From: a virus
IMG/VR virus record: IMGVR_UViG_3300042514_000940
Coordinates: 1 to 32,851 of that record
DNA: 32,851 bases
Direction: 5' to 3' (one strand)
In this document: positions 1-32,334 of the stretch, piece by piece
Layout: each line of letters starts with the position of its first letter
Numbering within the stretch: the first letter of the stretch is position 1
Notes under the pieces: generated by a model
The model's database searches: none
What the model saw: only the letters and a program-made list of their open reading frames with translations
Told to the model about the DNA's origin: nothing
Program-made: the position numbers and the translations under genes

Positions 1-1153
1 CAGCGATACCCTGTCCGATGATGTATCCCCAAGTAGGCACGCAGAAGTTCTCGATAAGCACGGACTGATACTTGCCGAACACGCGAGCGGCCTTGGCCGT
101 GACAAGCCTGATGGACGCACCGCCTAGCTTAGAAGGGTCGCTGACAAACTCATAAGGCAGAATGCCCATGCTGATGTCGCGTTCCAGGGCGGCGATGAAA
201 CCATTGAAGGTGGCGTTGGGGCGGTTGCTCTGGAAGGACGTCATGTCCTCCCCGGGCTCAAGGGCGATGAGTTTGCCGCCCATCGTGTTGGCGAGGTTGG
301 CGTAGGAGCCTGTGCCGGTCGCCCCCAGTTCGTTGGCCATGTCGCCGTCGATGACGCCGCCCGCCTTCTTGATGATGCGGGTGACGTCACCGTTGTCCTT
401 CACGGCCTGCTTTTCGAGGGCCAAGATTTCCATCTCGTCCTGGATGGAGTTGATGGAGTGTTGGAGCAGGGGCACGCCGCGAGCGCCGGACGCGTACTCC
501 TGGTCGACCACCATCATCATCGACTGAGCCAGAATCTGGCGGGACGAGCCGTCGGAGCGGTAGATGTTCACGGCGATGTATTCGCCATAGGGACCGAACT
601 GGATGCCGTCGTGCATACCCTCGGGCACCTTGCCTTCGAGGGGGTCTCCCACCCTGTGACTTTCCATCAGCTGGAGTTTCGCTTCACCGGCGCCGTTACG
701 CACCTTGGCGGCGAAGGAATCACCGTCGCGGATCATGCCGCGGAGAAGGATGGACTGAGCCTGGTAGAACGAGAAGCGGTTCGTGATGTCGATGCGCTTG
801 GCCTTCTCGGCGAAGTAAGCCTCATAGCGTTCCTGCATCTCAGGGGTCGACGCGTGGCTCTGCGGCTTGATGCCGTCGCCCACGGTGTAGAGGCAGATGT
901 CCGCAAGGATTTGCTTGAAGAGCCCGGAGTTACGTTCGGCCCAGCGGCACTTGCGCACCATCGTCAGGCGGTCGTAGGGGGTCAGGTCACGGCGGAGGTC
1001 ACGCGGTTCGGCGCCGTAGGCCGCACGGCGGGCACGCGTCACGCCGATGCTCTGCCAATCGCCGTAGGAAGCCTGCGGCTGCGGGGCGGTCGGGGCAGGC
1101 GTCACCGGCTTGGGACGCAGGCTGACGGTCTTAATCTTCTTGCGGATGGCCAT
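1..1153 (-). CDS. Portal protein, copy 1 (C-terminus cut by window edge)
   Basis: This is the lambda-family (Phage_portal_2 type) portal, the dodecameric ring at the capsid vertex through which DNA is packaged and which binds the terminase and head-tail connectors. The frame is open from the ATG at 1153 to base 1 (384 codons), matching residue for residue in length the first 384 residues of the complete 508-aa portal at 27856-29382. The C-terminal ~124 residues lie outside the window. It starts 6 nt after the gpW-like gene, as in the lambda A-W-B order. A weak AGGA lies upstream of the ATG. The residues at 205-1153 are almost identical to copy 2, but 1-204 is far more diverged (49 mismatches by hand count), so the gene is mosaic. 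Family assignment is secure from sequence and context; the truncation is only a window-edge effect. Confidence 0.9.
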   Translation of the reverse strand, partial: MAIRKKIKTVSLRPKPVTPAPTAPQPQASYGDWQSIGVTRARRAAYGAEPRDLRRDLTPYDRLTMVRKCRWAERNSGLFKQILADICLYTVGDGIKPQSHASTPEMQERYEAYFAEKAKRIDITNRFSFYQAQSILLRGMIRDGDSFAAKVRNGAGEAKLQLMESHRVGDPLEGKVPEGMHDGIQFGPYGEYIAVNIYRSDGSSRQILAQSMMMVVDQEYASGARGVPLLQHSINSIQDEMEILALEKQAVKDNGDVTRIIKKAGGVIDGDMANELGATGTGSYANLANTMGGKLIALEPGEDMTSFQSNRPNATFNGFIAALERDISMGILPYEFVSDPSKLGGASIRLVTAKAARVFGKYQSVLIENFCVPTWGYIIGQGIA

Positions 1154-1158
1154 GGAAA

Positions 1159-1413
1159 TTAGTCCTGACGGTTCTGCCAGTCGGTCGAGATGACCGTGCG
1201 ACGAGCGCCGTAAGTCGAAGGGTCGAGGCGGCTTAGGGCGAACATGGCCTCGGCGAGCATCTCCTTCGGGGGCATGGCGAACTGCTTAGACGCGGACGAG
1301 CCGGAGTCGGAGTAGGACATCAGGGTCTTACCTTCGGTGATCATGGCGACCGCCTTGGCTTTGATGTCTAGGAGTTCGCACTCCGTAAGTCCGATAAAGA
1401 GTCCAGAGGCCAT
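1159..1413 (-). CDS. gpW-like head-tail connector, copy 1
   Basis: This 84-aa protein sits between the large terminase and the portal, exactly where lambda has gpW, the small head-completion protein that attaches beneath the portal after packaging. It has the expected pattern: a helical first half with DIKAKAVAMITEGKT, a short polar turn rich in Ser, and a second helix (MLAEAMFALSRLD). It lacks clear membrane or enzymatic motifs. The start ATG at 1413 has no evident Shine-Dalgarno sequence; its leader contains a possible RNA hairpin (1445-1505). The stop is 5 nt before the portal start. The second copy at 29389-29643 differs at only a few residues. The gpW assignment rests on size, order and general pattern, so it is likely but not proven. 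Confidence 0.75.
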   Translation of the reverse strand: MASGLFIGLTECELLDIKAKAVAMITEGKTLMSYSDSGSSASKQFAMPPKEMLAEAMFALSRLDPSTYGARRTVISTDWQNRQD

Positions 1414-1526
1414 TTAAACTTGCCGAGAATGGAAGCCCGAGAGGGGGTACGCCGCCCAGCCCACGCCATAGGTCTCTTCCTCCCACGACACTAAACGGCG
1501 TACCCTTGCATATAGCGTGCCAAGGG
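1414..1526 (-). promoter_or_regulatory. terL-gpW intergenic leader with covarying hairpin, copy 1
   Basis: This 113-nt gap between the large terminase stop and the gpW-like start holds a perfect 10-bp inverted repeat, 1445-1454 (GGGTACGCCG) with 1496-1505, separated by 41 nt. In the second copy (29675-29684 with 29726-29735) the pair 1449/1501 changes from A-T to G-C, and the third change in the stem (1498 G to A) leaves a G-U pair in minus-strand RNA. All three stem changes therefore preserve pairing. No uridine tract follows, so it does not look like an intrinsic terminator. It may control translation or stability of the late transcript. Confidence 0.55.
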
Positions 1527-3314
1527 TCATGACGGTTGCAAGTCGGTTTCGGCAGTTTCCCGCCCGGCGATGCCCCAGCGGACGGCGGCCAGCAGGGCGA
1601 GGATTTCGCAGTCCATGGCGTGGTTGTCCTTCTTGCCCTGGGGAAGTATCCACATGGGCTTCCCGGTTCGCTTGTCCTTTACGCGGACTTCGGCGCTCAG
1701 CTGAGAAGCATACTCCTCGGTTGCGTCGATGGCATAGGTCCAGACGCGGCGAGCCCGGAGGCCGTGCAGGAGGTCCTTGCCGGCGGTGGCCGAGTGGACG
1801 ATCAGGACGGCCCGCTGCGGGATGCCAGGGACGACGATGGACTGCTTCTCGGAGTAGAAGCGGCGGGTCGTGTTTCCGGACTTGTCGGTCACGGCGAAGT
1901 CGTCGGAGCCTGAGCCCTTGGCCGTCTTCCAATTCCGCTTGGCCGTCTCGCGATAGACCTCGGTCGTATTGTCGCCGGAGTCGACGAGCACCATGGCGTG
2001 ATGGACGCCGTGCTGTTTGGCGAAGGCTTCGACGTTGCCCCAAGAGTCGATACGGGCGAACGCCATCAGGCGGCTGTGCCCGGTCTTGGCCCATCGGCGG
2101 ACAGTCACCCAGAAGTGGCCACGTTGGACGTCGACCCCCATCGTGCGGAAAGGGATGCTCCCGGGCACGGCGTCCTTCTGCTCGACGACGCGGGCCTTCG
2201 GCGTGATCGCGGCCTCCGCGTCCCAAGGGTCGGCCATCTTGTAGTTCGCGGCCTCCGACAGCGCCACCATTTCGCCGCCCTCTTCGCTCCAGGGTAACGC
2301 CAGCCGCTTCTGCTTGAAGATGCGCCGCGGTTCCTCGTCGCCGTATTGGTCGACCGACTCCTTGGCCTTGAGCATCAGCACGCCGAGCTCGCCCCAGCTC
2401 ATAGTCGCAAGGCTGTTCCAATGCAGGCCGATGTGCCCGGAGTTTGCGGCGGCCGATGTGGCTACAAAGGTTCCCCTGGCGTTGGCCTCAAGTCGGCTGG
2501 CGTTCGTGTCAGGCAGGAGCGTCCGACAGGCCGCGCACTCGTAGGTCGTGCCGACGCTGACCTTGTGCAAGTCCCACGTGCCGGTGGCCTTGGCGTCGAG
2601 CGGCAGCCTGACCTGTTCCCATACCCACGGCTGGAGATGGTCGCATTTCACACACCTCATATTCCAGTCACGCTGATCGGTCGTCTCGTGCAGCTGATGG
2701 AACTCCTGCCCCGCCCGTCCGCCCTGGGATAGGAAGATGCGTTTGCCCATCCAGCCGAACGCCGTCACGCGCGCGCTCAGTTCAGCCAAGTGTCCGGGCG
2801 GTGCCATCCAGCACTCGTCGGCGATGGTGTAACGCAGGGACAGGCGCTGAAGGTTAGCCTCGTTCCAGATGCCGCGACAGTAGAGCGTCATGCGGTCGAA
2901 GTCCGCGGTCGTCGAGCGGTCGAGGTCGTCGCCCGAGAGACGCGCCTTAACCGGCGGGCAGTTGTTCCAGACCGGGCGGAGGTAACGTAGCGCGAAGTCT
3001 TTGGCCTCGGGGTCCGTGGCTTGGAGGACCATGCAGGGGCCCGGAGCGTTGGCGATTATGTGACAGGTGAGCAGGCGGGCAAAGAGGGACTTGCCGGATT
3101 GGATGCTGGCGAGGACGGTCAGGAGTTTCGTCTCAGGATCGGCGGCGATGCGTAGGGCTTCGGCCACCCAAGGCGTGCGCTCGGAACGGAACGGCCCGGG
3201 CATCGGTGAGTCGGGGATGGCGTGCACGTTGGACTCCAGCCACTCGACGACGTCACCCGAGTCGGACGGACGCAGCACGTCACGGCCTACGCGGAGTAGG
3301 TCGGACTTATTCAT
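1527..3314 (-). CDS. terL: Terminase large subunit, GpA family, copy 1
   Basis: This 595-aa protein is the ATP-driven DNA-packaging motor and nuclease that cuts concatemers and docks on the portal. The N-terminal ATPase has a Walker A-type segment ending QSGKS (about residues 70-76) and a Walker B region ending IADE (about 164-167). Two Cys pairs (C221/C224 and C260/C263) look like a zinc-binding insert, as in the GpA family (PF05876). The C-terminal nuclease region has acidic motifs GVDV, LVDSGD and DNHAMDCE. The length is close to lambda gpA (641 aa). The ATG overlaps the 45-aa gene by 8 nt and has the best Shine-Dalgarno (GGAGG) I found, located inside that gene. Compared with copy 2, substitutions cluster in blocks near residues 318-355 and 515-535. 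Confidence 0.95.
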   Translation of the reverse strand: MNKSDLLRVGRDVLRPSDSGDVVEWLESNVHAIPDSPMPGPFRSERTPWVAEALRIAADPETKLLTVLASIQSGKSLFARLLTCHIIANAPGPCMVLQATDPEAKDFALRYLRPVWNNCPPVKARLSGDDLDRSTTADFDRMTLYCRGIWNEANLQRLSLRYTIADECWMAPPGHLAELSARVTAFGWMGKRIFLSQGGRAGQEFHQLHETTDQRDWNMRCVKCDHLQPWVWEQVRLPLDAKATGTWDLHKVSVGTTYECAACRTLLPDTNASRLEANARGTFVATSAAANSGHIGLHWNSLATMSWGELGVLMLKAKESVDQYGDEEPRRIFKQKRLALPWSEEGGEMVALSEAANYKMADPWDAEAAITPKARVVEQKDAVPGSIPFRTMGVDVQRGHFWVTVRRWAKTGHSRLMAFARIDSWGNVEAFAKQHGVHHAMVLVDSGDNTTEVYRETAKRNWKTAKGSGSDDFAVTDKSGNTTRRFYSEKQSIVVPGIPQRAVLIVHSATAGKDLLHGLRARRVWTYAIDATEEYASQLSAEVRVKDKRTGKPMWILPQGKKDNHAMDCEILALLAAVRWGIAGRETAETDLQPS

Positions 3315-3444
3315 ACAGGCCTGCCTCCTTCAGGAGACGATACAGCTCGTCGGATAACTCAGACCACTTCCTCGGCTTGCGCTTGAACGGACGCGACGGC
3401 TTCGGCATAGGCTTGCGCCTGGGCTTGGGCTTACGCTTCTTCAT
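3307..3444 (-). CDS. 45-aa Lys/Arg/Pro-rich protein between terS and terL, copy 1
   Basis: This short gene encodes MKKRKPKPRRKPMPKP followed by a basic stretch and an amphipathic C-terminal helix (WSELSDELYRLLKEAGLYE). It overlaps the end of terS by 14 nt and the start of terL by 8 nt, so it looks translationally coupled to both and carries the terL ribosome-binding site. The second copy at 31537-31674 keeps the frame, length and stop; of the differences only one changes a residue (Lys2 to Thr) while the others I found are silent third-position changes. That pattern supports a real coding sequence. I do not recognise a family. The high positive charge suggests nucleic-acid binding, and its place suggests a role in packaging or as a terminase accessory; both are inferences. 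Confidence 0.75.
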   Translation of the reverse strand: MKKRKPKPRRKPMPKPSRPFKRKPRKWSELSDELYRLLKEAGLYE

Positions 3445-3985
3445 GGGTCGATAGGTCGGCCTTAACGCGGCGCACCCAAGCCTCCAGAACTTTCACCGCC
3501 TTCGCCGGGTTTTCGGGGTTACATCCCTCTGCAACATCGAGGGCGAGTTTGTCGAGGCGGTTGACGATGCCCGCCGTCATCTCGCGCATGGCCTCGGTCG
3601 CTTCCTTCGCGGAGATGTAATCCTTGGTCAGGATGAGCCGACGCTCCTGCTCTTCCTCGAGGGCGACGAGCGTCTTCAGTGAGGCGTTATAACTCGACTG
3701 GTACTTCCCCTGGTTAGGGTCGCCCCCTTCCATCGCGGCCTGCCAGACGCCACGCGCCCGACTGACCAAGGTCCGATGTTCGCTGATCGTGTCAGCCAGG
3801 GAGCCGTCGTCGAGCTGCGCCGGTGCGGCCTTCGGTGCCGCGGCCCGCTGCACGTTCGCCCGGGCTTCCCGCCATGCCCGAGCCGCGTCGATGCTGTCGG
3901 TCGGCATGCCTTCGCGTCGAAGGACTGAGATGCGTTGCGCGGTGACGCCGAGCGCCAAACCCAGTTCTGAGTTGGTTAGAGCCAT
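3431..3985 (-). CDS. terS: Terminase small subunit (Nu1-like), copy 1
   Basis: This 184-aa protein is the likely DNA-recognition subunit of the packaging terminase. The N-terminus (LTNSELGLALGVTAQRISVLRREGMP) is a winged/helix-turn-helix of the kind in lambda Nu1, which binds the cos site. The middle and C-terminal parts are charged and helical, with a probable coiled coil around residues 80-170 suited to oligomerisation and contact with TerL. The ATG at 3985 follows a 119-nt conserved non-coding segment that could hold its binding site. No Shine-Dalgarno is evident. The second copy at 31661-32215 differs at only two residues (Glu to Asp in both), which is less than for any other duplicated gene. 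The assignment rests on the HTH, size and position directly before terL. Confidence 0.85.
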   Translation of the reverse strand: MALTNSELGLALGVTAQRISVLRREGMPTDSIDAARAWREARANVQRAAAPKAAPAQLDDGSLADTISEHRTLVSRARGVWQAAMEGGDPNQGKYQSSYNASLKTLVALEEEQERRLILTKDYISAKEATEAMREMTAGIVNRLDKLALDVAEGCNPENPAKAVKVLEAWVRRVKADLSTHEEA

Positions 3986-4104
3986 GGTTTGTTAAACGGC
4001 CTGTTTACGCTCTTCGACCCCACGAAAAACCTTCGTGGTGTCGGGCCACGCGTGACGTAGGGGGGGGTCTAGGAGACTCCTTAGAGGGGGTATTTGGGCC
4101 GTTT
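3986..4104. promoter_or_regulatory. Conserved non-coding segment upstream of terS (cos/pac candidate), copy 1
   Basis: This 119-nt gap between the 177-aa gene and terS contains a 7-bp hairpin (CCACGAA 4020-4026 with TTCGTGG 4032-4038, five-base loop) and a run of eight G at 4060-4067. Against copy 2 (32216-32334) only about four positions differ, and 4016-4091, including the hairpin, is identical. Non-coding sequence more conserved than neighbouring coding sequence suggests a functional site. In lambda the cos site lies just before the small terminase gene, so a cohesive-end or packaging site is the leading guess. A promoter for the late genes is the alternative. Confidence 0.4.
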
Positions 4105-4638
4105 TCATCGCTTGGGCGTGGCAGGGGGCAGGGGGCTAGGCGCCTTATTCTTGCCGCGTCTGGCATTCACATGAGGAAACAGACCGCACGCATCAGAGTT
4201 TACGGTGCGTTGGATCTCCTTCGCCCTGGCACGCATCCAGAAGTGGGAGCGTCCATACATCTTGCCGATCAGGCGAGAGGACAGACAACCGGGCAGACTG
4301 AGCGCCCAGCGGATGAGCTCGACGTGACGACGGAAGGCGAAGTTGTCCGTGCAGGCCAGCGCATCCATGAAGCCCTTGAGCATCACGCCCACATGATCGC
4401 GGGAGATGAACGCATCGACCTCTTCGCGTCTGCCGATGTCAGTCGGGTTGAACGCCCAGTCAGGATGATTGGCGTCGATGTTGAAGACGTGCCGAGGTTG
4501 CGCCATCTCAGCGTAAGGCAGCACGCCGTTCTCTCGCATCTTCTCCTGGACCTTCTTCGGCTGCGCAAAGAACCAAGCGTCAAACGACTTGGCCTCCTTA
4601 GCCGGAGCCGTCAGGTCGTTGAGCCTAGCGCGTGTCAC
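4105..4638 (-). CDS. Unknown 177-aa protein upstream of terS, copy 1
   Basis: I do not recognise this family. The protein starts with GTG at 4638, 11 nt after the previous gene. The first half is hydrophilic with a segment FNIDANHPDWAFNPTDIGRR. The second half has a helix-turn-helix-like stretch (LSSRLIGKMYGRSHFWMRARAKEIQ, about residues 118-142) and a basic tail (ARRGKNKAPSPLPPATPKR) that could bind DNA. No HNH or nuclease motif is visible, although HNH genes often occur at this place in related phages. It is the last gene before the terminase module and is retained nearly unchanged in copy 2 (32335 to the right edge). A DNA-binding role in packaging or in late-gene control is plausible but unproven. 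Confidence 0.6.
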   Translation of the reverse strand: MTRARLNDLTAPAKEAKSFDAWFFAQPKKVQEKMRENGVLPYAEMAQPRHVFNIDANHPDWAFNPTDIGRREEVDAFISRDHVGVMLKGFMDALACTDNFAFRRHVELIRWALSLPGCLSSRLIGKMYGRSHFWMRARAKEIQRTVNSDACGLFPHVNARRGKNKAPSPLPPATPKR

Positions 4639-4649
4639 GCGTCACAGCG

Positions 4650-5012
4650 TCAACTATCTTGACGGCGGGGCAAGTGGCAAAGGTTGTGCCAATATCCGTC
4701 CATGTCGAACCGTAGCATCGCCTTACGGGTGAAGCGATAGGTCAGGGATGAGTACTTGCCCGAGTAGTCCAGGGTCTGCTCGACGATGTCCTTGAGTTCC
4801 GCTGACGTCATCTTTGCCGGCCATGTGCTGATCACTTCCCTCAGCTCCATGTCTTTCCTTTCCTTGACTGCCTTGGCTGCCTCGGTGGCCTGCTGCCGGA
4901 TATGCTCCATCCTCTCAGGCTCTTCCCTCCAGGACTTCTGCCGTAGCCGGGTCAGGGCGAGCTTACGGAGGATCCATCCTCTCCGCGCGGTGGTACGGTT
5001 AGGTTTGGTCAT
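4650..5012 (-). CDS. Unknown basic 120-aa protein
   Basis: This gene encodes a strongly basic protein beginning MTKPNRTTARRGWILRK, with a central charged helix (residues ~30-65) and a C-terminal part containing TSAELKDIVEQTLDYSGKYSSLTYRFTRKAM. I chose the ATG at 5012; a longer reading from TTG at 5069 is possible but has no supporting signal. It is separated from the helicase gene by a 165-nt gap that holds short repeats, and ends 11 nt before the 177-aa gene. No known domain is recognised. Basic charge and position between replication and packaging genes would fit a DNA-binding regulator, but this is inference. Confidence 0.6.
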   Translation of the reverse strand: MTKPNRTTARRGWILRKLALTRLRQKSWREEPERMEHIRQQATEAAKAVKERKDMELREVISTWPAKMTSAELKDIVEQTLDYSGKYSSLTYRFTRKAMLRFDMDGYWHNLCHLPRRQDS

Positions 5013-5177
5013 CGCGTTAGACTTGCGGCCTCGCCAGAGACTCGGTCGAACCCCGAGCGTCAGCGACAAGGGGTGAGACTAGAGTCACCCTTGTACGTAG
5101 TACAGGGACGGAAGTTGAGTTGGAAGTTGAGAAGGGATTTGACATTGGTCTAAAGGTGGGGGTGCGGGTGTTGACCC
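5013..5177. promoter_or_regulatory. Repeat-containing gap downstream of helicase gene
   Basis: This 165-nt gap has a small palindrome (TGTAC-GTA-GTACA, 5092-5104) followed by a 10-bp direct repeat GGAAGTTGAG at 5110-5119 and 5122-5131, two bases apart. The stretch is less GC-rich than its surroundings. It lies between the helicase stop (5178) and the start at 5012. It could be a promoter/operator for the packaging genes, or iterons of a replication origin next to the helicase gene. I see no clear -10/-35 pair on the minus strand. Confidence 0.35.
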
Positions 5178-6488
5178 TCAGTTGACCTTAAAACGCCTTG
5201 GCGACCCCTTAGCGGGGCTGGAATCGCTATGTCTTGGGGCGTTGTCGGGTAGGCTTTCGGAGGGGGGCTGGCTGTATTCCCAGCGGATGACCCCCTTCTC
5301 GGCGGCGTGGCGGATGTAAATCTCGCCCTTGAACTGGTTCGCGTGGTCCTTGAGACCAGCCCGGCCACGGCGCTTGGTCAGGCCGAACTTGTAGATCGGC
5401 TCTTCGCCCTGGCATCGGAACAGGACGGCGACCTCGCGGAACCAGTTGGTGAACTCCGAGGAGCCGAGGCCAGCATAGGCTAGGTCGGCGACGGTATGGC
5501 CTTCCTTGTCGGAGGCGGCCTTGGGCTTCCCGGTGTGGTGCATGGCCACGAGGACGGCGCCTGTCTCGAGCAGGATGGGGGCGAGGTCATGGCGTAGGAA
5601 CTTGGATGCCTGCTCCTGATCGGAGACGTCGATGCCCGCGAAGGACAGGAGAGGGTCGACGAAGACGATGTCGGCCTTGTGCTCGATGATGAGGTCACGT
5701 AGGGCCGAGGTAAAGGTCGTGCCGGTGCTCACGGTGTCGCGGAAGATGGCGAGGTGTTCGCGCAGCTGAGAGCGTTCGTCGCTGTCGAGGTATGCCCCGG
5801 CGATGACGTCCTGAAGGGCTTCCCCTACGTCGAGGAAATCGTTCTCGGCCTGAAGCACGATGGCACGCAGGGGGCGGACAGGCTTGATGCCGAAGAAGTC
5901 CTTGCCGATGCACCAATGGACGGCGGCCTGCATCATGAGGGACGACTTGCCCGTGCCGGACTGGCCGACGATCAGGAGGGAGCCGCCCTTGCACAGCCAG
6001 CGGTGATTGCCGAGGATGCAGTTGGGGTCGTTCTTTCGGTCAGCCGAAATGAGCGCGTCGAAGTCCATGCGCTGCGGTCCGTGCTTTGCCTTCCGACCCT
6101 TGCGCGTCTCGGCGATGGTGGCATAATGGTCGAGCAGGGTGTCGGGGTCGGTGGCCTGTTCGGCGGCGACGAGGGCACGGCGGAGGATGGCCGCGTCCGC
6201 GATCATGTCGGCGTGTTCGGGGCGATATGTCGATTGGCCTGCGTCGCTGACCAGGAGCGAGACGGTGGCCTCGGTGACCGGGCTGTTAACCTGGCGTAGG
6301 CGCTGGCTGACCGTCAGCTCATCAGGGGCGACTCCATCCACGGCCAGCGAAAGCATGGCGGCGGCGATGTCTTGATGGGCGGGCTCAAAGAAGTCGGAAG
6401 GCTGAAGGTCGCCCGGTAATGGGAAGGCTTCGCGTAGGAGGACGCCGAGCAGGTGGCGTTCCGCGGCGACGTTATTCGGCGGGATCAT
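5178..6488 (-). CDS. Replicative helicase, DnaB N-terminal domain plus RepA-like ATPase
   Basis: This 436-aa protein is the likely replicative DNA helicase. Residues 1-110 resemble the DnaB N-terminal domain (NNVAAERHLLGVLL near the start, typical of primase-interacting helicases). From about residue 140 a RecA-fold ATPase of the RepA/AAA_25 type follows, with Walker A GQSGTGKSS (175-183), Walker B ADIVFVDPL (272-280) and a downstream VAMHHTGK segment matching the H-motif of hexameric RepA helicases. The C-terminus is a disordered Ser/Pro tail. I start it at ATG 6488, where the DnaB-like homology begins; an in-frame extension to 6695 has no domain support. No Shine-Dalgarno is visible. It lies in a row of DNA-metabolism genes. 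No primase or polymerase was found, so host enzymes are probably used. Confidence 0.88.
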   Translation of the reverse strand: MIPPNNVAAERHLLGVLLREAFPLPGDLQPSDFFEPAHQDIAAAMLSLAVDGVAPDELTVSQRLRQVNSPVTEATVSLLVSDAGQSTYRPEHADMIADAAILRRALVAAEQATDPDTLLDHYATIAETRKGRKAKHGPQRMDFDALISADRKNDPNCILGNHRWLCKGGSLLIVGQSGTGKSSLMMQAAVHWCIGKDFFGIKPVRPLRAIVLQAENDFLDVGEALQDVIAGAYLDSDERSQLREHLAIFRDTVSTGTTFTSALRDLIIEHKADIVFVDPLLSFAGIDVSDQEQASKFLRHDLAPILLETGAVLVAMHHTGKPKAASDKEGHTVADLAYAGLGSSEFTNWFREVAVLFRCQGEEPIYKFGLTKRRGRAGLKDHANQFKGEIYIRHAAEKGVIRWEYSQPPSESLPDNAPRHSDSSPAKGSPRRFKVN

Positions 6489-6538
6489 GGAAGAGAGGGT
6501 TGGGGTTTGGGGGCGTGGGTGCCCGTGGTCAAGATGCT

Positions 6539-6970
6539 TTAACGACAGGCACGGTCGAGGTCGGCCTTGCGGTAGTAAGGGACGCTCCGCGGGTTGCGGA
6601 GGATGCGGACAGGGAGGGCCATGCCGTCGATGCGGTATTGCACGCCGCGGACGGTGCGCCGGTGCTTGTGGGCATACTCGGAGAGGGTGACCCAACCCTT
6701 GGGGGCCTTGAACTTGTCGAGGGCTTCAGCTGCGGCCTTGGCGGCGGGCCAAGACTTGAACCTGGGCGACAGGCGATAGATGAAGCGGCCTCGGCGGATG
6801 GTCTTCTGTTCAGCGAAGCCAGCCTTGACGATGCGGGCGAGCGGCAAAGAGACACCGGCACGCGTCGTATAGCCTAGGAGGCGGACGACCTCCGTGGTCT
6901 TGTGCCAGCCTTCGGGGGTGTCGTCGGCGTTGATCGCGGCGACGAGGGCGTGGGCGTCGAAGCGCTTCAT
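6539..6970 (-). CDS. Winged-helix/HTH-like DNA-binding protein, 143 aa
   Basis: The protein begins MKRFDAHALVAAINADD. It has an N-terminal segment (TTEVVRLLGYTTRAGVSLPLARIVKAGFAEQKTI, split over a helix-turn-helix and a wing ending in RGRFIYRLSPRF) that looks like a winged helix. A second possible HTH follows (WVTLSEYAHKHRRTVRGVQYRI, about residues 92-115), similar to MerR/excisionase-type folds. Its ATG overlaps the stop of the metallophosphoesterase gene as ATGA, so they are probably co-translated. It precedes the helicase gene by 50 nt, so it could be an origin-binding initiator or helicase loader, or a transcription regulator. The sequence alone does not decide between them. Confidence 0.6.
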   Translation of the reverse strand: MKRFDAHALVAAINADDTPEGWHKTTEVVRLLGYTTRAGVSLPLARIVKAGFAEQKTIRRGRFIYRLSPRFKSWPAAKAAAEALDKFKAPKGWVTLSEYAHKHRRTVRGVQYRIDGMALPVRILRNPRSVPYYRKADLDRACR

Positions 6971-7731
6971 CGGGCCTTCGGGGTGAAGACCTTGAGGTCG
7001 GTGGTCCAGACCCAGCGGGAGCCGACGCGGTGGACAAGCCAGACTTTCCAGTCCTTGCCATCCACCCACCCGGCCGCAAATCCTGACCCCCACCGGCTTG
7101 TCGCCAGTCTGTGTGACGCGTAAGCCATGGCGTCCTTCTGGCAGAGACAGCCAGCGGAGAAAGCGGCGCCGCCTTCGGCCTTGGTCAAGTTAACCTGGGC
7201 GAGCGTGTGGGTGTGGCCGTGGATCAGAGCGCCTCCGCGGTCGGCGTAGTGCTTGCCCTGCTCGGCGGTGGCGTTCAGGCCGTGGGCGTAGCCGTGGATA
7301 AAGGCGACCTGACCTAGTCGGTAGACGCCCTTCTCGGCGTGGTAGGGGAGGATGGTCTTGGCTCCGCAGCTCTTTGCGGCGGTCTTTATCCGGGCCTCGA
7401 GGTCGGCGCAGTAGTCACGCACCAGGGCGGAGCCGGAGGTATGCTGGAGGGCTTGGGCGCGGTGCTCGTGGTTGCCCATCAGGTAGACGGTTGGCTTGGT
7501 GCGCTCAAGGAAGGCTTCACCGGCCTCGATGTCGGAGATGAGGGACTCGGCGCCTTCGGCATCCTGCCCTGCCCCACGGCGCAGGGATCGGAAGTCAAAG
7601 CAGTCTCCTAGGTGGACGCGCACGGTCGGCTTGTAGTCCTTGATGAACTCGACGAGGGCCTCGACGGCGTTCTCGTCAGCCATGTCGCCGTGGTTATCAC
7701 CGAAGGCGACGAAGCGGGTAGGGGTGCTCAT
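6967..7731 (-). CDS. Calcineurin-like metallophosphoesterase
   Basis: This 254-aa protein has the full set of metallophosphoesterase motifs in order: D12-x-H14 in GDNHGD, GD at 42-43, GNHEH at 86-90, HGYAH at 146-150 and GHTH at 172-175. These residues bind a dinuclear metal centre. The family includes DNA nucleases (SbcD/Mre11), cyclic-nucleotide and nucleotide phosphodiesterases and protein phosphatases. In phages such genes are common next to replication and recombination genes, where nuclease or nucleotide-signal degradation roles are suspected. The ATG overlaps the stop of the 104-aa gene (TAATG) and its own stop overlaps the next start. The enzyme class is clear; the substrate is not. 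Confidence 0.88.
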   Translation of the reverse strand: MSTPTRFVAFGDNHGDMADENAVEALVEFIKDYKPTVRVHLGDCFDFRSLRRGAGQDAEGAESLISDIEAGEAFLERTKPTVYLMGNHEHRAQALQHTSGSALVRDYCADLEARIKTAAKSCGAKTILPYHAEKGVYRLGQVAFIHGYAHGLNATAEQGKHYADRGGALIHGHTHTLAQVNLTKAEGGAAFSAGCLCQKDAMAYASHRLATSRWGSGFAAGWVDGKDWKVWLVHRVGSRWVWTTDLKVFTPKAR

Positions 7732-8045
7732 TAGCGGACGTTGATGTAAGGGATGGGCTTTCCGGCGTCGAAGGCGGCCAGCATCTCGTCACGGCGCTTG
7801 CGGGCGGTCTCGAGGTCGCTGGCGATGTTCTCGACGATGTCCTTGCCGCGGCGACGCAGGCGGAACCAATAGCAGTCGCCGAGTTTCTGGAGGTGGTGGT
7901 TAGGGTTCTCGGCCTTGATGTAGGCGGGCTTGTCGTTTCGCCCGGTGCGGGTATACTTCGGGCAGGCCAGCAGGAAGGCCACGCGGTCGGGGGACAGGCC
8001 GACCTTGTTCGCCCAGCGCAGCGTGTCGGTGTTCAGAGTTTCCAT
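7731..8045 (-). CDS. Unknown 104-aa protein with possible DNA-binding beta domain
   Basis: The N-terminus (TDTLRWANKVGLSPDRVAFLLACPKY) is helical. The second half (CYWFRLRRRGKDIVENIASD, then LETARKRRDEMLAAFDAGKP) has the strand-strand-strand-helix pattern seen in AP2/arm-type DNA-binding domains of tyrosine recombinases. No recombinase catalytic domain follows here or elsewhere in the window. It overlaps the dNMP-kinase gene by 13 nt and the next gene by 1 nt, so it belongs to the same operon. The arm-domain idea is only a pattern impression. A small phage DNA-binding protein is the most I would claim. Confidence 0.5.
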   Translation of the reverse strand: METLNTDTLRWANKVGLSPDRVAFLLACPKYTRTGRNDKPAYIKAENPNHHLQKLGDCYWFRLRRRGKDIVENIASDLETARKRRDEMLAAFDAGKPIPYINVR

Positions 8046-16949: not shown

Positions 16950-19834
16950 TATGCTTGAGACCAGAAGACCTTGCTGCCGAAGTTGCCCATGCCGAGAGGA
17001 GTTACTGCACTAGCAGTTTGCTCAACGACTTCGCAGTAGAAGTTAGAGTTTTCTGCTGTGCTGGTCGAGGGGCCTCCAGTGCTGGTCGCGACTTGCGAGT
17101 CGTTGACCCAGAGGGTGACGTTGCCAGTGCCGTCGGAATACATTTTCCAATCAAAGACCTGTCCGAGGACCGGCGTGAATGAGGATGTCGTTTCCGTAAG
17201 TACGGATCCGGTGCTGACCGTCATAACAAGGGCAACAGACCCTCCACCAGCGACACGCCATCCGATGCCGGGGTCTGCAGCCTGCATGCCTCCAGTGCCT
17301 GCGGAAGAACGACCGCCAAGCATTACTCGGGCAGTGCAGTTTGCGTCACCGTTTAAGCCGCTGGTCGTCTCGGCGAACTGACCGAGAACGGTTCGACCAC
17401 TTACCCAAATTTTATTGTTCCATTTGCGAGCGTGAGATGAAGATCCACGTGTCATTGCGGCCATGCCAATGCCGCTAAATGAGTAGTCAAAAATATACAT
17501 CCCATATCCTGCCACTGTAGCATTGGGACTGCGGATGGCGTGCCAGCGTTGGCTTCCGAACGTGAACGTAGAAGCCGCACCGGTACCGCTCGTAGCGACA
17601 TTCCCACCACCGAAGAGATTGATGTAACCAGGATACATCAGCATCTCGCGGGTCGTGTCGGGCGTCATGCCGAGCGTCGAGCTCGAGGGACGCAGGGCTT
17701 CGTCGACGGTGGCGAGTTCGACCTTACCAGCGGCGGTAGTCGAGGCGGAGGGGACTTCCTGCTGCACGAACGCCGTAGTCGCCAGCGCCGTGGTGTTGTT
17801 GCCAGCGGTCTGCGTGACGCCGATTGTGCCGGTCGGCAGGGAGGGCGTGCCGGAAAAGGTCGGGCTTGCCAAGGGCGCCGCCCCAGAGACGTCAGCCACG
17901 GCCAGCGTGATCGCACCCGTGCGGCCAGCGACCGAGGTCACAGGGGCGGAGGTGAGGTAGCCCGCCGGGTTCGAGCTGAGCGGGTAATACAGTCCGTTGG
18001 CGACAGTCGTGGTCGAGTAGTCCGCAGCCGTGGCCGTGGCCATCGTGCCTAGGCCGAGGTTAGTGCGGGCCGTGGAGGTGCTGGCCAGCCCGCTCAGGTT
18101 GTCCGCCTTGAGCAGGAAGTCGGAAGAGCCAGGATAGGCTACGGTCTGCGTGACGCCGTCAGGGTACTTGATGCCGGTGGGGCTCAGGCGAATAACTTCA
18201 TTGGAGTTATTACGCATCGAGAAGACATTGCTGTCTAAACGAGTATCATAGCCAACGCCGCTTCCGGGTACACTGATGGCGTAGTTGCCCGGGTTGTCAA
18301 AGGTAGCCAAGCCCGTGAAAGTCGGGCTGGCCTTGGGGGCATACGTCGTCGCCGCGTCAGCCGAGGTCAGCAGGCCAAGCGCAGAGTAGGTCTTGTTCTT
18401 CCAGAGGTCGGTCGAGGACTCGTAAGCCAGGAGGTCGTTGTTGGCCAGCGTGCCGATGGACACGTCGTGGATTTCGCCAAGCTCGTAGCCGTTCTGGACA
18501 GCCACGAGGATAGTCCCAAGGGTCGGATGCGAGCGGATGACGATGCCGACGTAGACGAGATGCTGAGGGGCGGAGGGCTTGGTGGTCGTCCAAGAGCCAG
18601 CCACCGTCGGGGACAGATACAGCTGCACACCTTCGGTCAGGGCGGACGTGTCGATGTTTTCCAGTTCCCCGCGCACGATGACGTAGCCCGTGCCGTTGTT
18701 GGCGATGGCCGTCTTGACGAAGCCGATGGTCTGGGCGGAGTTCGCGTCGTTGTTAGCCTGGGCCAGCGTGATCAGGGGCTTGTTGCCCGTGGCGCCGGAG
18801 ATGTAGACGATGGAGCCAGCCGCGATTGTCGAGCCGGACTGGTTGCGGACTTCGACCTCTAGGTTGCGGGCGACCGCCGTGCCACCAGCGAGAGCGGACT
18901 GGACGAAGGCGGTCGTCGCGAGGGAGGTATCGTTGTCGCCGAAGGTCGCCGTCGGGGCGGTCGGGTTGCCCGTGAAGGCGGGGGAGGCGAGCGGGGCGTA
19001 AGCCGAGAGGTCAATCGACAGGTTGCCGGTCGTGACCGACAGGGGCGAAGAGACGCTGGTGATGTAATCGGGGGTGGTCGTTACCACATCCCAGGCGCCG
19101 TTCTTTCGGGCATACTGCGAGCCGTCCGAAGGGGCGTCGTTGACGACAGCCAGGGAGCCTAGGCCGAGGTTGGTGCGGGCCGTGGAGGTCGAGGCTAGGT
19201 CGCTGAGGTTCGAGGCCTTCGCAAGGTAGGCCGTCAGCTGAGAGGTCGTGAAGGCAGTTGTCTGGACACTGGCGTCAGGGAACGTGATGCCGACGGACGG
19301 CTGGATCGTAAAGGAGCCGGAGGTTGCGTGTGTCAGCGACAGGGAGGTCGGCGTCAGGTTCGCGACGTTGGCGCCGGAGCCCTGCGCCGTGATGCCGGCA
19401 AAGGTGGGGGAGGACAGAGAGCCGAGCCCAAGGTTGTCCCGAGCCGTGGCAAAGTTCGTCAGGCTGCCGAGGTTGTCGGCCTTGGTCAGGTAGGGCGTAA
19501 GCGAGGAGGCAGTCAGGAATCCGCTCGGGTTACCCGACAAAGGATAGAATCCAGCCGTCACCCAAGACTCGGTTGCCAAGCCCGTCAGGTTGACCGTCAC
19601 CCAGTCGGTCGCGTAATCGACGCCCGAGGTCTTCTGAAGGAACTGGCCAGAGGTGCCGCCGGCAGGCAGGCCGATACCAGCAGGGCCAGCAGGCCCAGGG
19701 ACGCCGACGCTGCCCGTCAGGGTGCCAGGGACGATGCCCGAGATGGTGCCCGAGATGGTGGACTGGTCAGCGGAGAATACCCCCGAGATTGTCCCGAAGG
19801 TCGAAGCCGTCGAGGTGATCGTCGCGTCGGGCAT
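16949..19834 (-). CDS. Tail fibre / receptor-binding protein, 961 aa
   Basis: The N-terminus (residues 1-45) is Ser/Thr/Ile-rich (STASTFGTISGVF) and likely docks on the tail. A collagen-like stretch VPGPAGPAGIG (45-55) follows. The shaft carries repeats: DNLGSLTNFATARDNLGLG (~120-138), SNLSDLASTSTARTNLGLG (~208-226) and a third copy near 577-595, plus two TTAFVQ-type fibre repeats and 'SPTFTG/SPAFTG' linkers. The last ~200 residues, with the strand-rich WHAIRSPNATVAGYGMY and VFDWKMYSDGTGNVTLWVND, look like a concanavalin-type jelly roll that could bind glycans on the host. It is the longest gene in the window. Function as adsorption fibre is clear; receptor unknown. Confidence 0.85.
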   Translation of the reverse strand: MPDATITSTASTFGTISGVFSADQSTISGTISGIVPGTLTGSVGVPGPAGPAGIGLPAGGTSGQFLQKTSGVDYATDWVTVNLTGLATESWVTAGFYPLSGNPSGFLTASSLTPYLTKADNLGSLTNFATARDNLGLGSLSSPTFAGITAQGSGANVANLTPTSLSLTHATSGSFTIQPSVGITFPDASVQTTAFTTSQLTAYLAKASNLSDLASTSTARTNLGLGSLAVVNDAPSDGSQYARKNGAWDVVTTTPDYITSVSSPLSVTTGNLSIDLSAYAPLASPAFTGNPTAPTATFGDNDTSLATTAFVQSALAGGTAVARNLEVEVRNQSGSTIAAGSIVYISGATGNKPLITLAQANNDANSAQTIGFVKTAIANNGTGYVIVRGELENIDTSALTEGVQLYLSPTVAGSWTTTKPSAPQHLVYVGIVIRSHPTLGTILVAVQNGYELGEIHDVSIGTLANNDLLAYESSTDLWKNKTYSALGLLTSADAATTYAPKASPTFTGLATFDNPGNYAISVPGSGVGYDTRLDSNVFSMRNNSNEVIRLSPTGIKYPDGVTQTVAYPGSSDFLLKADNLSGLASTSTARTNLGLGTMATATAADYSTTTVANGLYYPLSSNPAGYLTSAPVTSVAGRTGAITLAVADVSGAAPLASPTFSGTPSLPTGTIGVTQTAGNNTTALATTAFVQQEVPSASTTAAGKVELATVDEALRPSSSTLGMTPDTTREMLMYPGYINLFGGGNVATSGTGAASTFTFGSQRWHAIRSPNATVAGYGMYIFDYSFSGIGMAAMTRGSSSHARKWNNKIWVSGRTVLGQFAETTSGLNGDANCTARVMLGGRSSAGTGGMQAADPGIGWRVAGGGSVALVMTVSTGSVLTETTSSFTPVLGQVFDWKMYSDGTGNVTLWVNDSQVATSTGGPSTSTAENSNFYCEVVEQTASAVTPLGMGNFGSKVFWSQA

Positions 19835-27855: not shown

Positions 27856-29382
27856 TTAGGAATTGGGTTGGTCGAGCTCTTCGGGCTCTTCCTGGTCAGC
27901 GGGTTCGTCCTCCATCTCGGGGGACTCGGGGCCTTCCATGACATCGCCGCTGATCGTGCCGACTGGGGTGTTGGACGGACGGAACAGCAGTTCAAACGGG
28001 ATGCCGTATTGTTCGGCCAAGTCCTTGATGTGGACCATATCAGAGGCACGCTTGGCCATCTCGGTGCGGAAGTCTAGGCCGCGCTGGGCGTAGAGTTCGG
28101 ACATGGACAGCAGGCCCATCTCGACGTCGGCTCGGTCGTTCGCGGCTTCGCGGCCAGCGTCGACGGTGACGGACTTCGGGGTCGTCCAGGATACGCGGTT
28201 CCAATCCGGGTCGTCAGGGAGTTCGCCGGCGGCGATGCCTTGGCCGATGATGTAACCCCACGTCGGAACGCAGAAGTTCTCGATCATGATGGTCTGGTAC
28301 TTCGAGAAGACGCGGCCAGCCTTGGCGGTGATGAGGCGGACGGTGGCGCCGCCCAGCTTGGAGGAGTCGCCGACAAACTCGTAAGGCAGCACGCCTTGGG
28401 AGATGTCGCGTTCCAGCGCCGCGAGGAAGCCGGTGAAGGTGGCGTTGGGGCGGTTGCTCTGGAAGGACGTCATGTCCTCCCCGGGCTCAAGGGCGATGAG
28501 TTTGCCGCCCATCGTGTTGGCGAGGTTGGCGTAGGAGCCGGTTCCCGTTGAGCCAAGTTCGTTGGCCATGTCGCCGTCGATGATGCCGCCCGCCTTCTTG
28601 ATGATGCGGGTGACGTCGCCGTTGTCCTTCACGGCCTGCTTCTCGAGGGCGAGGATTTCCATCTCGTCCTGAATGCTGTTGATGCTGTGCTGGAGAAGAG
28701 GGACGCCACGGGCGCCGGACGCATACTCCTGGTCGACCACCATCATCATCGACTGAGCGAGGATCTGGCGGGACGAGCCGTCGGAGCGGTAGATGTTCAC
28801 GGCGATGTATTCGCCATACGGACCGAACTGGATGCCGTCGTGCATACCCTCGGGCACCTTGCCTTCCAGAGGGTCGCCGACGCGGTGGGCTTCCATCAGC
28901 TGGAGTTTCGCTTCACCGGTGCCGTTACGCACCTTGGCGGCGAACGAGTCACCGTCGCGGATCATGCCGCGCAGCAAGATGGACTGAGCCTGATAGAACG
29001 AGAAGCGGTTCGTGATGTCGATGCGCTTGGCCTTCTCGGCGAAGTAAGCCTCATAGCGTTCCTGCATCTCAGGGGTCGACGCGTGGCTCTGGGGCTTGAT
29101 GCCGTCGCCAACGGTGTAAAGGCAGATGTCCGCAAGGATTTGCTTGAACAGCCCGGAGTTACGCTCGGCCCAGCGGCACTTGCGGACCATCGTCAGGCGG
29201 TCGTAAGGGGTCAGGTCACGGCGAAGGTCACGGGGCTCCGCGCCATAGGCCGCACGGCGGGCACGCGTCACGCCGATGCTCTGCCAATCGCCGTAGGAAG
29301 CCTGCGGCTGCGGGGCGGAGGGCGTAGCCTTGGGCGTCTTGGGACGCAGGCTGACGGTCTTAATCTTCTTGCGGATGGCCAT
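27856..29382 (-). CDS. Portal protein, copy 2 (complete, 508 aa)
   Basis: This is the complete lambda-family portal. After a basic N-terminus (MAIRKKIKTVSLRPKTPKAT) the family core begins with YGDWQSIGVTRARRAAYGAE, RDLTPYDRLTMVRKCRWAER and NSGLFKQILADICLYTVGDG. A glycine/Pro-rich stem region and a long acidic tail (EDEPADQEEPEELDQPNS) end the protein. It starts 6 nt after the gpW-like stop and ends 4 nt before the protease gene. The length is close to lambda gpB (533 aa). From ~28434 rightwards it is almost identical to copy 1, but the segment 28230-28433 is strongly diverged. Confidence 0.92.
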   Translation of the reverse strand: MAIRKKIKTVSLRPKTPKATPSAPQPQASYGDWQSIGVTRARRAAYGAEPRDLRRDLTPYDRLTMVRKCRWAERNSGLFKQILADICLYTVGDGIKPQSHASTPEMQERYEAYFAEKAKRIDITNRFSFYQAQSILLRGMIRDGDSFAAKVRNGTGEAKLQLMEAHRVGDPLEGKVPEGMHDGIQFGPYGEYIAVNIYRSDGSSRQILAQSMMMVVDQEYASGARGVPLLQHSINSIQDEMEILALEKQAVKDNGDVTRIIKKAGGIIDGDMANELGSTGTGSYANLANTMGGKLIALEPGEDMTSFQSNRPNATFTGFLAALERDISQGVLPYEFVGDSSKLGGATVRLITAKAGRVFSKYQTIMIENFCVPTWGYIIGQGIAAGELPDDPDWNRVSWTTPKSVTVDAGREAANDRADVEMGLLSMSELYAQRGLDFRTEMAKRASDMVHIKDLAEQYGIPFELLFRPSNTPVGTISGDVMEGPESPEMEDEPADQEEPEELDQPNS

Positions 29383-29388
29383 GGAAAG

Positions 29389-29643
29389 TTAGTCCTGACG
29401 GTTCTGCCAGTCGGTCGAGATGATCGTGCGACGCGAGCCGTAAGTCGCCGGGTCGAGGCGGCTGAGGGCGAACATGGCTTCGGCGAGCATCTCCTTCGGG
29501 GGCATGGCGAACTGCTTGGACGCGGACGAGCCGGAGTCGGAGTAGGACATCAGGGTCTTACCTTCGGTGATCATGGAGACCGCCTTGGCTTTGATGTCTA
29601 GGAGTTCGCACTCCGTAAGTCCGATAAAGAGTCCAGAGGCCAT
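29389..29643 (-). CDS. gpW-like head-tail connector, copy 2
   Basis: The 84-aa protein is the second copy of the connector. It begins MASGLFIGLTECELLDIKAK. It differs from copy 1 only by A-to-S, S-to-A, A-to-S and V-to-I type changes, while silent changes are more frequent. Order terL-gpW-portal is preserved. The call depends on the same reasoning as for copy 1. Confidence 0.75.
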   Translation of the reverse strand: MASGLFIGLTECELLDIKAKAVSMITEGKTLMSYSDSGSSASKQFAMPPKEMLAEAMFALSRLDPATYGSRRTIISTDWQNRQD

Positions 29644-29756: not shown

Positions 29757-31544
29757 TCATGACGGTTGCAAGTCGGTTTCGGCAGTTTCCCGCCCAGCGA
29801 TGCCCCAGCGGACGGCCGCCAGCAGGGCGAGGATTTCGCAGTCCATGGCGTGGTTGTCCTTCTTGCCCTGGGGAAGTATCCACATTGGTTTGCCCGTCCG
29901 CTTGTCCTTGATGCGGACTTCGGCGCTCAGCTGCTCAACGTACTCGGGGGTGGCGTCGAGGGCGTAGCTCCACACGCGGCGAGCCCGCAAGCCGTGCAGG
30001 AGGTCTTTGCCGGCGGTGGCCGAGTGGACGATTAGGATCGCGCGCTGTGGGATGCCAGGGACGACGATGGACTGCTTCTCGGAGTAGAAGCGGCGGGTCG
30101 TGTTGCCGGACTTGTCAGTCACTGCGAAGTCGTCGGACCCTGAGCCCTTGGCCGTCTTCCAGTTCCGCTTGGCGGTCTCGCGGTAGACCTCGGTGGTGTT
30201 GTCGCCTGAGTCGACGAGCACCATGGCATGATGGACGCCGTGCTGTTTGGCGAAGGCTTCGACGTTGCCCCATGAGTCGATGCGGGCGAAGGCCATCAGG
30301 CGGCTGTGCCCGGTCTTGGCCCATCGGCGGACAGTCACCCAGAAGTGGCCACGTTGGACGTCGACCCCCATCGTGCGGAAAGGGATGCTCCCGGGCACGG
30401 CGTCCTTCTGCTCGACGACGCGGGCCTTCGGGGTGATCGCGGCCTCTGCGTCCCAAGGGTCGGCCATCTTGTAGTTGGCGGCCTCAGCCAGGGCGGTAAT
30501 CTCGCCGCCCTCTTCTGACCAGGGCAGGGCGAGACGCTTCTGTTTCCACTGGCGACGCTGATCGTCACTGCCGTAGGTGTCGAAATCTTCCTTCGCTTTT
30601 AGGCACATCACGCCGAGCTCGCCCCAGCTCATCGTCGCAAGGCTGTTCCAATGCAGGCCGATGTGCCCGGAGTTCGCGGCGACCGACGTAGCGACGAAGG
30701 TTCCGCGGGCGTTGGCCTCTAGGCGGCTTGCGTTCGTGTCAGGCAGGAGCGTGCGGCAGGCCGCGCACTCGTAGGTCGTGCCGACGCTGACCTTGTGCAA
30801 GTCCCATGTGCCCGTCGCCTTGGCGTCCTCGGGGAACCTGATCTGCTCCCAGACCCACGGCTGCAAGTGGTCGCACTTCGGGCACCTCATGTTCCAATCA
30901 CGCTGGTCGGTCGTCTCGTGCAGCTGATGGAACTCCTGCCCAGCCCGTCCGCCCTGGGATAGGAAGATGCGTTTGCCCATCCAGCCGAACGCCGTGACGC
31001 GCGCGCTCAGTTCGGCCAAGTGTCCGGGCGGCGCCATCCAGCACTCGTCGGCGATCGTGTAACGCAGGGACAGGCGCTGAAGGTTGGCCTCATTCCAGAT
31101 GCCGCGGCAGTAGAGCGTCATGCGGTCGAAGTCCGCCGTCGTCGAGCGGTCGAGGTCGTCACCCGAAAGACGCGCCTTCACCGGCGGGCAGTTGTTCCAG
31201 ACCGGGCGGAGGTAACGCAGGGCGAAGTCTTTGGCCTCGGGGTCCGTGGCCTGAAGCACCATCGTCGGCCCAGGAGCGTTGGCGATGATGTGGCACGTCA
31301 GCAGGCGGGCGAAGAGGGACTTGCCAGATTGGATGCTGGCGAGGACGGTCAGAAGTTTCGTCTCGGGATCAGAAGCCAAGCGAAGGGCCTCCGCCACCCA
31401 CGGCGTGCGCTCGGAGCGGAACGGCCCGGGCATCGGCGAGTCAGGGATGGCGAGCACGTTGGACTCCAGCCATTCGACCACGTCACCCGAGTCTGACGGG
31501 CGCAACACGTCGCGACCGATGCGGAGCAAGTCAGCCTTATTCAT
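29757..31544 (-). CDS. terL: Terminase large subunit, GpA family, copy 2
   Basis: This 595-aa copy has the same length and motifs as copy 1: QSGKS P-loop, IADE Walker B, CPKC and CAAC zinc pairs, and the nuclease motifs GVDVQRGHFW, LVDSGDNT and DNHAMDCE. The zinc knuckle differs by Val-to-Pro (RCPKC is closer to the usual zinc ribbon). Substitutions cluster at residues ~318-355 (MCLKAKEDFDTYGSDDQRR against LMLKAKESVDQYGDEEPRR in copy 1) and at 515-535. Both copies look fully functional. The start overlaps the 45-aa gene by 8 nt. Confidence 0.95.
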   Translation of the reverse strand: MNKADLLRIGRDVLRPSDSGDVVEWLESNVLAIPDSPMPGPFRSERTPWVAEALRLASDPETKLLTVLASIQSGKSLFARLLTCHIIANAPGPTMVLQATDPEAKDFALRYLRPVWNNCPPVKARLSGDDLDRSTTADFDRMTLYCRGIWNEANLQRLSLRYTIADECWMAPPGHLAELSARVTAFGWMGKRIFLSQGGRAGQEFHQLHETTDQRDWNMRCPKCDHLQPWVWEQIRFPEDAKATGTWDLHKVSVGTTYECAACRTLLPDTNASRLEANARGTFVATSVAANSGHIGLHWNSLATMSWGELGVMCLKAKEDFDTYGSDDQRRQWKQKRLALPWSEEGGEITALAEAANYKMADPWDAEAAITPKARVVEQKDAVPGSIPFRTMGVDVQRGHFWVTVRRWAKTGHSRLMAFARIDSWGNVEAFAKQHGVHHAMVLVDSGDNTTEVYRETAKRNWKTAKGSGSDDFAVTDKSGNTTRRFYSEKQSIVVPGIPQRAILIVHSATAGKDLLHGLRARRVWSYALDATPEYVEQLSAEVRIKDKRTGKPMWILPQGKKDNHAMDCEILALLAAVRWGIAGRETAETDLQPS

Positions 31545-31674
31545 AAAGCCCTGCCTCCTTCAGCAGACGATACAGCTCGTCGGACAACTCCGACCACTTC
31601 CTCGGCTTGCGCTTGAACGGACGCGACGGCTTCGGCATCGGCTTACGCCTGGGCTTGGGCTTACGCTTCGTCAT
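31537..31674 (-). CDS. 45-aa Lys/Arg/Pro-rich protein between terS and terL, copy 2
   Basis: The second copy begins MTKRKPKPRRKPMPKP and ends LYRLLKEAGLYE. Relative to copy 1 the changes I found are silent (several third positions) except the second codon (Lys to Thr). The 14-nt and 8-nt overlaps with terS and terL are the same. The frame is intact, which with the silent-change pattern indicates selection on the protein. Function unknown; basic, so nucleic-acid or terminase binding is a guess. Confidence 0.75.
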   Translation of the reverse strand: MTKRKPKPRRKPMPKPSRPFKRKPRKWSELSDELYRLLKEAGLYE

Positions 31675-32215
31675 GGGTCGAAAGGTCGGCCTTCACGCGG
31701 CGCACCCAAGCCTCCAGAACTTTCACCGCCTTCGCAGGGTTCTCGGGGTTACATCCTTCTGCGACATCGAGGGCGAGTTTATCGAGGCGGTTGACGATGC
31801 CCGCCGTCATGTCGCGCATGGCCTCGGTCGCTTCCTTCGCGGAGATGTAATCCTTGGTCAGGATGAGCCGACGCTCCTGCTCTTCCTCGAGGGCGACCAG
31901 CGTTTTGAGCGAGGCGTTATAACTCGACTGGTACTTCCCCTGGTTAGGGTCGCCCCCTTCCATCGCGGCCTGCCAGACGCCACGCGCCCGACTGACCAAG
32001 GTCCGATGTTCGCTGATCGTGTCAGCCAAGGAGCCGTCGTCGAGCTGCGCCGGTGCGGCCTTCGGTGCCGCGGCCCGCTGCACGTTCGCCCGGGCTTCCC
32101 GCCATGCCCGAGCCGCGTCGATGCTGTCGGTCGGCATGCCTTCGCGTCGAAGGACTGAGATGCGTTGCGCGGTGACGCCGAGCGCCAAACCCAGTTCTGA
32201 GTTGGTTAGAGCCAT
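31661..32215 (-). CDS. terS: Terminase small subunit (Nu1-like), copy 2
   Basis: The 184-aa second copy has the same N-terminal HTH (LTNSELGLALGVTAQR) and coiled middle as copy 1. I find two residue differences, both Glu to Asp. Its DNA is nearly identical to copy 1 over the 5' half, far more than in the neighbouring terL. Recent exchange between the two lineages, or strong constraint on the DNA-recognition subunit and its target, would explain this. Confidence 0.85.
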   Translation of the reverse strand: MALTNSELGLALGVTAQRISVLRREGMPTDSIDAARAWREARANVQRAAAPKAAPAQLDDGSLADTISEHRTLVSRARGVWQAAMEGGDPNQGKYQSSYNASLKTLVALEEEQERRLILTKDYISAKEATEAMRDMTAGIVNRLDKLALDVAEGCNPENPAKAVKVLEAWVRRVKADLSTHDEA

Positions 32216-32334
32216 GGTTTGTTAAACGGCCTGTTTTCGCTCTGTGACCCCACGAAAAACCTTCGTGGTGTCGGGCCACGCGTGACGTAGGGGGGGGTCT
32301 AGGAGACTCCTTAGAGGGGGTATATGGGCCGTTT
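32216..32334. promoter_or_regulatory. Conserved non-coding segment upstream of terS (cos/pac candidate), copy 2
   Basis: The copy of the 3986-4104 element. The 7-bp hairpin (32250-32256 with 32262-32268), the G8 run and the flanking block are unchanged; only about four positions of 119 differ. See copy 1 for possible roles. Confidence 0.4.

Follow-up and report, generated by a model that had tools for sequence, protein, structure and literature searches.

The window analysed here, the whole 32,851-bp stretch of one IMG/VR record, carries on its minus strand, in this order, a 177-aa ORF, a non-coding stretch (3986-4104), terS, terL, an 84-aa ORF and a lambda-family portal gene (Table 1). TerL belongs to the lambda gpA family, with matches to PF05876 (E 7e-29) and PF20454 (E 1.2e-18). 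The model of TerS, with a mean pLDDT of 79.7 and a pTM of 0.37, matched no PDB entry at E 0.001 by fold or at E 1 by sequence. Elsewhere in the window, three diverged 71-nt repeats (18039-19483) lie within a 961-aa tail-fibre-like ORF.

Table 1. Features at the terminase end of the window and in its second strain copy.
Feature	Position	Strand	Basis
terL, 595 aa, GpA_ATPase and GpA_nuclease	1527..3314	minus	Pfam, PHROGs
terS, 184 aa, helix-turn-helix at the N-terminus (model)	3431..3985	minus	phrog_57 (E 2.4e-06); predicted structure
Element GTTTAACAAACC next to the terS start, follows the helix-turn-helix type of TerS; cosB candidate for TerS binding	3986..3997	minus	type association
Inverted repeat CCACGAA-5-TTCGTGG, adjoins the cut; probably in place of lambda I2	4020..4038	minus	sequence, relatives
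cosN, 11 bases TGGCCCGACAC common to left and right genome ends	4038..4048	minus	contig ends
C-tract (G8 run), -12 to -19 from cosN, conserved in relatives; putative cosQ-like region	4060..4067	minus	relatives' alignment
Palindrome AGGAGTCTCCT, -23 to -33 from cosN; putatively cosQ-like	4071..4081	minus	relatives' alignment
177-aa ORF, right-end side of cosN	4105..4638	minus	no Pfam/PHROGs match at E 0.001
terL, second strain copy	29757..31544	minus	Pfam, PHROGs
terS, second strain copy	31661..32215	minus	PHROGs match
cosN at the same locus, second strain	32268..32278	minus	copy alignment, L075 match

Window positions 1-4621 and 28231-32851 form one collinear alignment that has a single internal indel and reaches both contig ends, and the two versions of this 4.6-kb repeat are several percent apart. 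The most likely explanation for this arrangement is that the contig makes one full turn of a 28,230-bp unit and then continues into a second haplotype. The window would thus represent one 28,230-bp cos-to-cos unit with parts of a second strain at its flanks, and what the initial annotation had called two copies is a single locus. Among the relatives, L075 has 100% identity with the second copy (4675 nt) and L009 97.9% with window 1555-6540. The record is classed as linear in IMG/VR, and the repetition of one locus from two strains at the window ends was therefore not taken as a sign of circularity.

The initial annotation had proposed a cos site in the non-coding stretch, partly on the grounds that about 115 of its 119 bases, including an identical run of about 76 nt with a 7-bp hairpin, are shared between the copies. 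These figures were accurate: 3986-4104 and 32216-32334 agree at 115 of 119 positions (96.6%; mismatches at 4007, 4014, 4015, and 4094), the longest identical run is 78 nt (4016-4093) and holds the 7-bp inverted repeat at 4020-4038, and the G8 run is present at 4060-4067. The accompanying statement that the neighbouring coding DNA diverges more was not confirmed: terS is identical at 541 of 555 positions (97.5%) and the part of the 177-aa gene present in both copies at 500 of 517 (96.7%), and terL alone falls below the non-coding stretch (1604 of 1788; 89.7%). Between 1160 and 4621, 1134 of 3344 segments of 119 nt have at least 115 identities between the copies. Because the copies are one locus in two strains, with terS and the 177-aa gene equally conserved, we rejected conservation between copies as evidence for cos.

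As a proxy for virion DNA ends we used the contig ends of IMG/VR relatives, read in terminase orientation; searches with TerL gave 260 pattern-matched relatives and those with the 177-aa protein 188, and 80 were kept from each. Among 122 5' ends examined, 96 could be placed and 18 of these lie exactly at window position 4048, the next best position having 2. At the other side, 109 of 125 3' ends were placed and 21 lie exactly at 4038 (next best position, 3). Four further left ends (L037, L063, L078, and L081), which the alignment did not place, begin with the motif. The resulting 22 left and 21 right ends, 43 ends altogether, come from 37 datasets. Their terminal 11-mer is TGGCCCGACAC in 18 of the 22 left and 20 of the 21 right ends and is one base off in the remainder; the left ends of L021 and L073 each have one cosN base unlike the search pattern. 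After identical 400-nt ends were collapsed, and with pattern scans included, 32 distinct left and 38 distinct right ends were counted.

By counts that were not deduplicated by contig, 37 of the 124 left-motif occurrences in related loci stand at a contig edge and none at a distance of 1-4, and of the 123 right-motif occurrences 41 stand at the edge, one at distance 1 and one at distance 4. Unrelated contigs have no edge occurrence of either motif among 41 left (one at distance 3) and 26 right. In four of seven long contigs (28,886, 28,976, 29,207, and 29,554 bp) the 11-mer forms both the first and the last bases; the other three (28,915, 29,452, and 29,955 bp) do not have it at both ends. Most cosN occurrences, the window's included, are internal to contigs, which we attribute, as a conjecture, to intracellular concatemers or circles.

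Fixed contig ends at 4048 and 4038 that share 11 bases place the cos site to the base. This amounts to the pile-up of read ends by which the initial annotation had suggested checking its candidate, here with contig ends of independent metagenomes in place of reads, and the ends are unique and fixed by this proxy. With fixed ends inside 3986-4104 and a TerL carrying gpA-family Pfam domains, the proposal of cos upstream of terS is borne out, and the region is very probably where a tailed phage with a lambda gpA-type terminase has its cos site. Headful packaging, with the stretch as a pac or regulatory site and circularly permuted virion DNA, is very improbable: the window contig and many relatives do run straight through the site, but pac cleavage gives at most one imprecise series of ends, whereas the variable ends expected of it are replaced here by two pile-ups, right and left, each on a single base, next to a gpA-type TerL. 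It is equally hard to credit that assembly simply breaks off at the hairpin, at the G8 run or in the strain-shared stretch, since, for all that a hairpin, a G8 run and mixed strains coincide here, the ends fall on two exact bases with an 11-nt overlap, far shorter than usual assembly k-mers, recur in 37 datasets and in contigs with a different hairpin, and no other position of mapped ends rises above 3.

cosN lies between both flanking genes in all 72 loci that hold both, part of which were fetched by the cosN pattern. It is nearly constant among the relatives (77 upstream and 89 downstream sequences, all unique), a conservation partly set by the search pattern, which allowed variation at two positions only, and it is preceded by CGCG. 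It also occurs in L262, L265, and L303, where TerL matches at 47-55%. The TerLs of L271 and L274 look mosaic by eye, with a first half near the window's and a second half near the divergent L262/L265 type. The distance from cos to terL is 734 nt in the window and 604 nt in many relatives, with an optional stretch of ~130 nt in the terS-terL gap (window 3315-3430). In one further locus (L052, 13-2322) the sequence upstream of terL is inverted relative to the window and cosN was not found, possibly reflecting a chimera or a rearrangement.

When library ends are repaired, 5' overhangs are filled in and 3' overhangs are trimmed off. Since left and right ends share 11 bases, this chemistry points to 11-nt 5' overhangs, with nicks predicted at 4049/4048 on the minus strand and at 4037/4038 on the plus strand. 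Such overhangs fit the lambda gpA-type terminase encoded here. Two other kinds of genome end were considered. Ends with 3' overhangs (HK97-type), once blunt-repaired, would have no common bases, and the ends here share 11. Long direct terminal repeats appear unlikely from a 4.6-kb window repeat whose versions differ by several percent and from full contigs of relatives, which were compared for the 11-mer and share it at their edges.

A conserved palindrome and C-tract occur on the right-end side of cosN only, the side that matches cosQ. The palindrome AGGAGTCTCCT is exact at -23 to -33 in 35 of 77 unique upstream sequences. By analogy, we consider the two motifs together to be cosQ-like. The initial annotation had taken the hairpin and the G8 run as marks of cos; the G8 run corresponds to the conserved C-tract and the hairpin does adjoin the cut, its outer arm including base 4038, but it is not itself the cut.

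The hairpin is frequent among the relatives rather than universal. A perfect stem of at least 6 bp, formed by 14 different arm pairs, is present in 42 of 70 unique hairpin segments, and the stem is 4 bp or shorter in 20 of 70. Shuffles that kept the invariant part gave stems of at least 6 bp in a mean of 3.8 and a maximum of 10 of 70 segments (200 runs), and eight other offsets in the same loci gave 0-3 of 59-71. Among representatives at least 4 bases apart the stem is kept in 9 of 19 (0 of 500 shuffles), among those at least 6 bases apart in 4 of 11 and among those at least 8 bases apart in 3 of 8 (1 of 500 shuffles each). RNA folding of eight chosen variants gave z below -2 in four and between -1.2 and +1.0 in the other four. 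The segment shows little association with TerS type (Mantel r 0.084, 28 of 999 permutations; partial r given TerL 0.031, 189 of 999). We tentatively propose, while considering it rather unlikely, that selection on the stretch from cosN to the TerS-linked element favours self-complementarity and not sequence, and that this stretch acts as a folded strand, either as a cruciform at cos or as an RNA hairpin in a transcript crossing cos, and would thus be a structural part of packaging or regulation. The portions of the lambda-type cos literature available to us describe no such part.

The TerS N-termini of 99 loci fall into type A (67 loci), type B (25), type C (6), and type D (1), and the element before the first ORF follows these types. 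A strict GTT(T/G)NNCAAAC is present in 54 of 67 type A loci and 0 of 32 others, TGTTGACA in 23 of 25 type B loci and 0 of 74 others, and CCTGTTTTC in all 6 type C loci and 0 of 93 others; the remaining two type B loci have TGTATTTACA directly before terS. Element and TerS N-terminus type are correlated (Mantel r 0.589), also given TerL (partial r 0.547) or the TerS C-terminus (0.471), with 0 of 999 permutations in each case, though Mantel tests leave some effects of descent in this association. From this association, the element is a candidate cosB, putatively bound by TerS. Alternatively, it could track TerS by physical linkage, moving with terS, and not through binding, a serious possibility that we place somewhat short of probable. 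In types A and C the element adjoins the start of terS, so that short recombination tracts carry both. Against linkage, TGTTGACA is still present in the 23 type B loci in which terS lies ~630 nt from the element behind another ORF, the element stays when the N-terminus of this intervening ORF changes (L047, L056, and L080), and the hairpin, only ~10-30 nt from the element, has little link to TerS type (partial r 0.031).

In these 23 of 25 type B loci, ~690 nt separate cosN from terS. The intervening ORFs encode 211-217 aa (211-215 aa in the 15 non-redundant ones) with an E...RAD...ETKK pattern and a variable N-terminal part, and they overlap the start of terS (L007, L038, L085, L047, and other type B loci). 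By this motif, judged by eye, the products resemble PD-(D/E)XK nucleases; they gave no Pfam match and one PHROGs match (E 0.0095) of unassigned function, and the model had a pLDDT of 63.5. On the right-end side, an HNH-like ORF separates cosN from the 177-aa gene in some relatives (L307, L121, L118, L116, L122, and L024); that of L307 matches PF14279 (E 2e-6) and phrog_1035 (E 4e-13), and the others were recognised by eye. Methyltransferase-like ORFs were seen by eye in L053 and L076. Three related loci (L322, L323, and L324) occur in bacterial genome records, namely two MAG records of Opitutales and Opitutae, and the MAG contig L324 carries cosN. Phage contigs binned into MAGs in this way only suggest a Verrucomicrobiota host.

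We propose the following working model. The fixed contig ends would be the ends of virion DNA. TerS may dock through its helix-turn-helix on the type-specific cosB candidate upstream of the first gene and so hold TerL over cosN, where TerL would nick concatemeric DNA at positions 11 bp apart and leave 11-nt 5' overhangs, later filled in by library end repair. On the other side of cosN, the palindrome and C-tract may help the downstream cos to be recognised when packaging ends (cosQ), and a structural role may fall to the self-complementary segment that separates cosN from the TerS-linked element.

The site belongs to the lambda-type cos, with an anatomy specific to this group. As in the cosQ-cosN-cosB sites of lambda, 21, and N15, which work with TerS and TerL, a gpA-family TerL is encoded here, 5' cohesive ends lie directly upstream of terS, and the order is right-end motif, cut, TerS-type-specific element. 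In this comparison the cosQ-like region is a candidate, and counterparts of the R sites and the IHF site would be putative. According to the part of PMC4669245 available to us, lambda and 21 have identical cosQ and cosN and differ in their cosB R sites and recognition helix; similarly, cosN is kept here while the TerS-linked element changes. Unlike lambda, 21, and N15, the group described here has ends of 11 instead of 12 nt and, from cosN to the element, a segment prone to hairpins. By the length of its ends, the site falls outside the lambda-like cohesive-end group in the definition given in that part of PMC4669245 (12-base 5' ends with significant identity to those of lambda). The aquatic Roseophage R4C likewise has a 5' cohesive end upstream of its small terminase gene, of 14 bp and found with PhageTerm on reads according to the available part of PMC6836515, compared with 11 nt found from contig ends here; this comparison is by description. 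A narrow literature search for an 11-nt lambda-type cos found nothing, from which we claim no absence from print.

In a named-phage collection, blastn found no nucleotide relatives of window 1-8000, and all 116 TerL matches are below 60% identity. Verrucomicrobia phage P8625 encodes a gpA-type TerL (23.5% identity over 96% of the query, E 3e-31) and has a DNA methylase gene upstream of terL, as does L076 by eye. Its record lacks the cosN core, the palindrome and the C-tract by pattern search, as well as any exact terminal repeat of at least 6 nt, and with all three patterns absent we rejected this phage as a cultured standard for the ends.

For a widespread uncultivated phage group, these results supply the genome ends, the unit length and the likely cut chemistry, so that its genomes can be oriented and closed, and the ends of public metagenome contigs can place cos to the base without reads. 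The natural swaps of the TerS helix-turn-helix and its neighbouring element beside a near-constant cosN provide a ready test set for packaging specificity outside the enteric lambda group.
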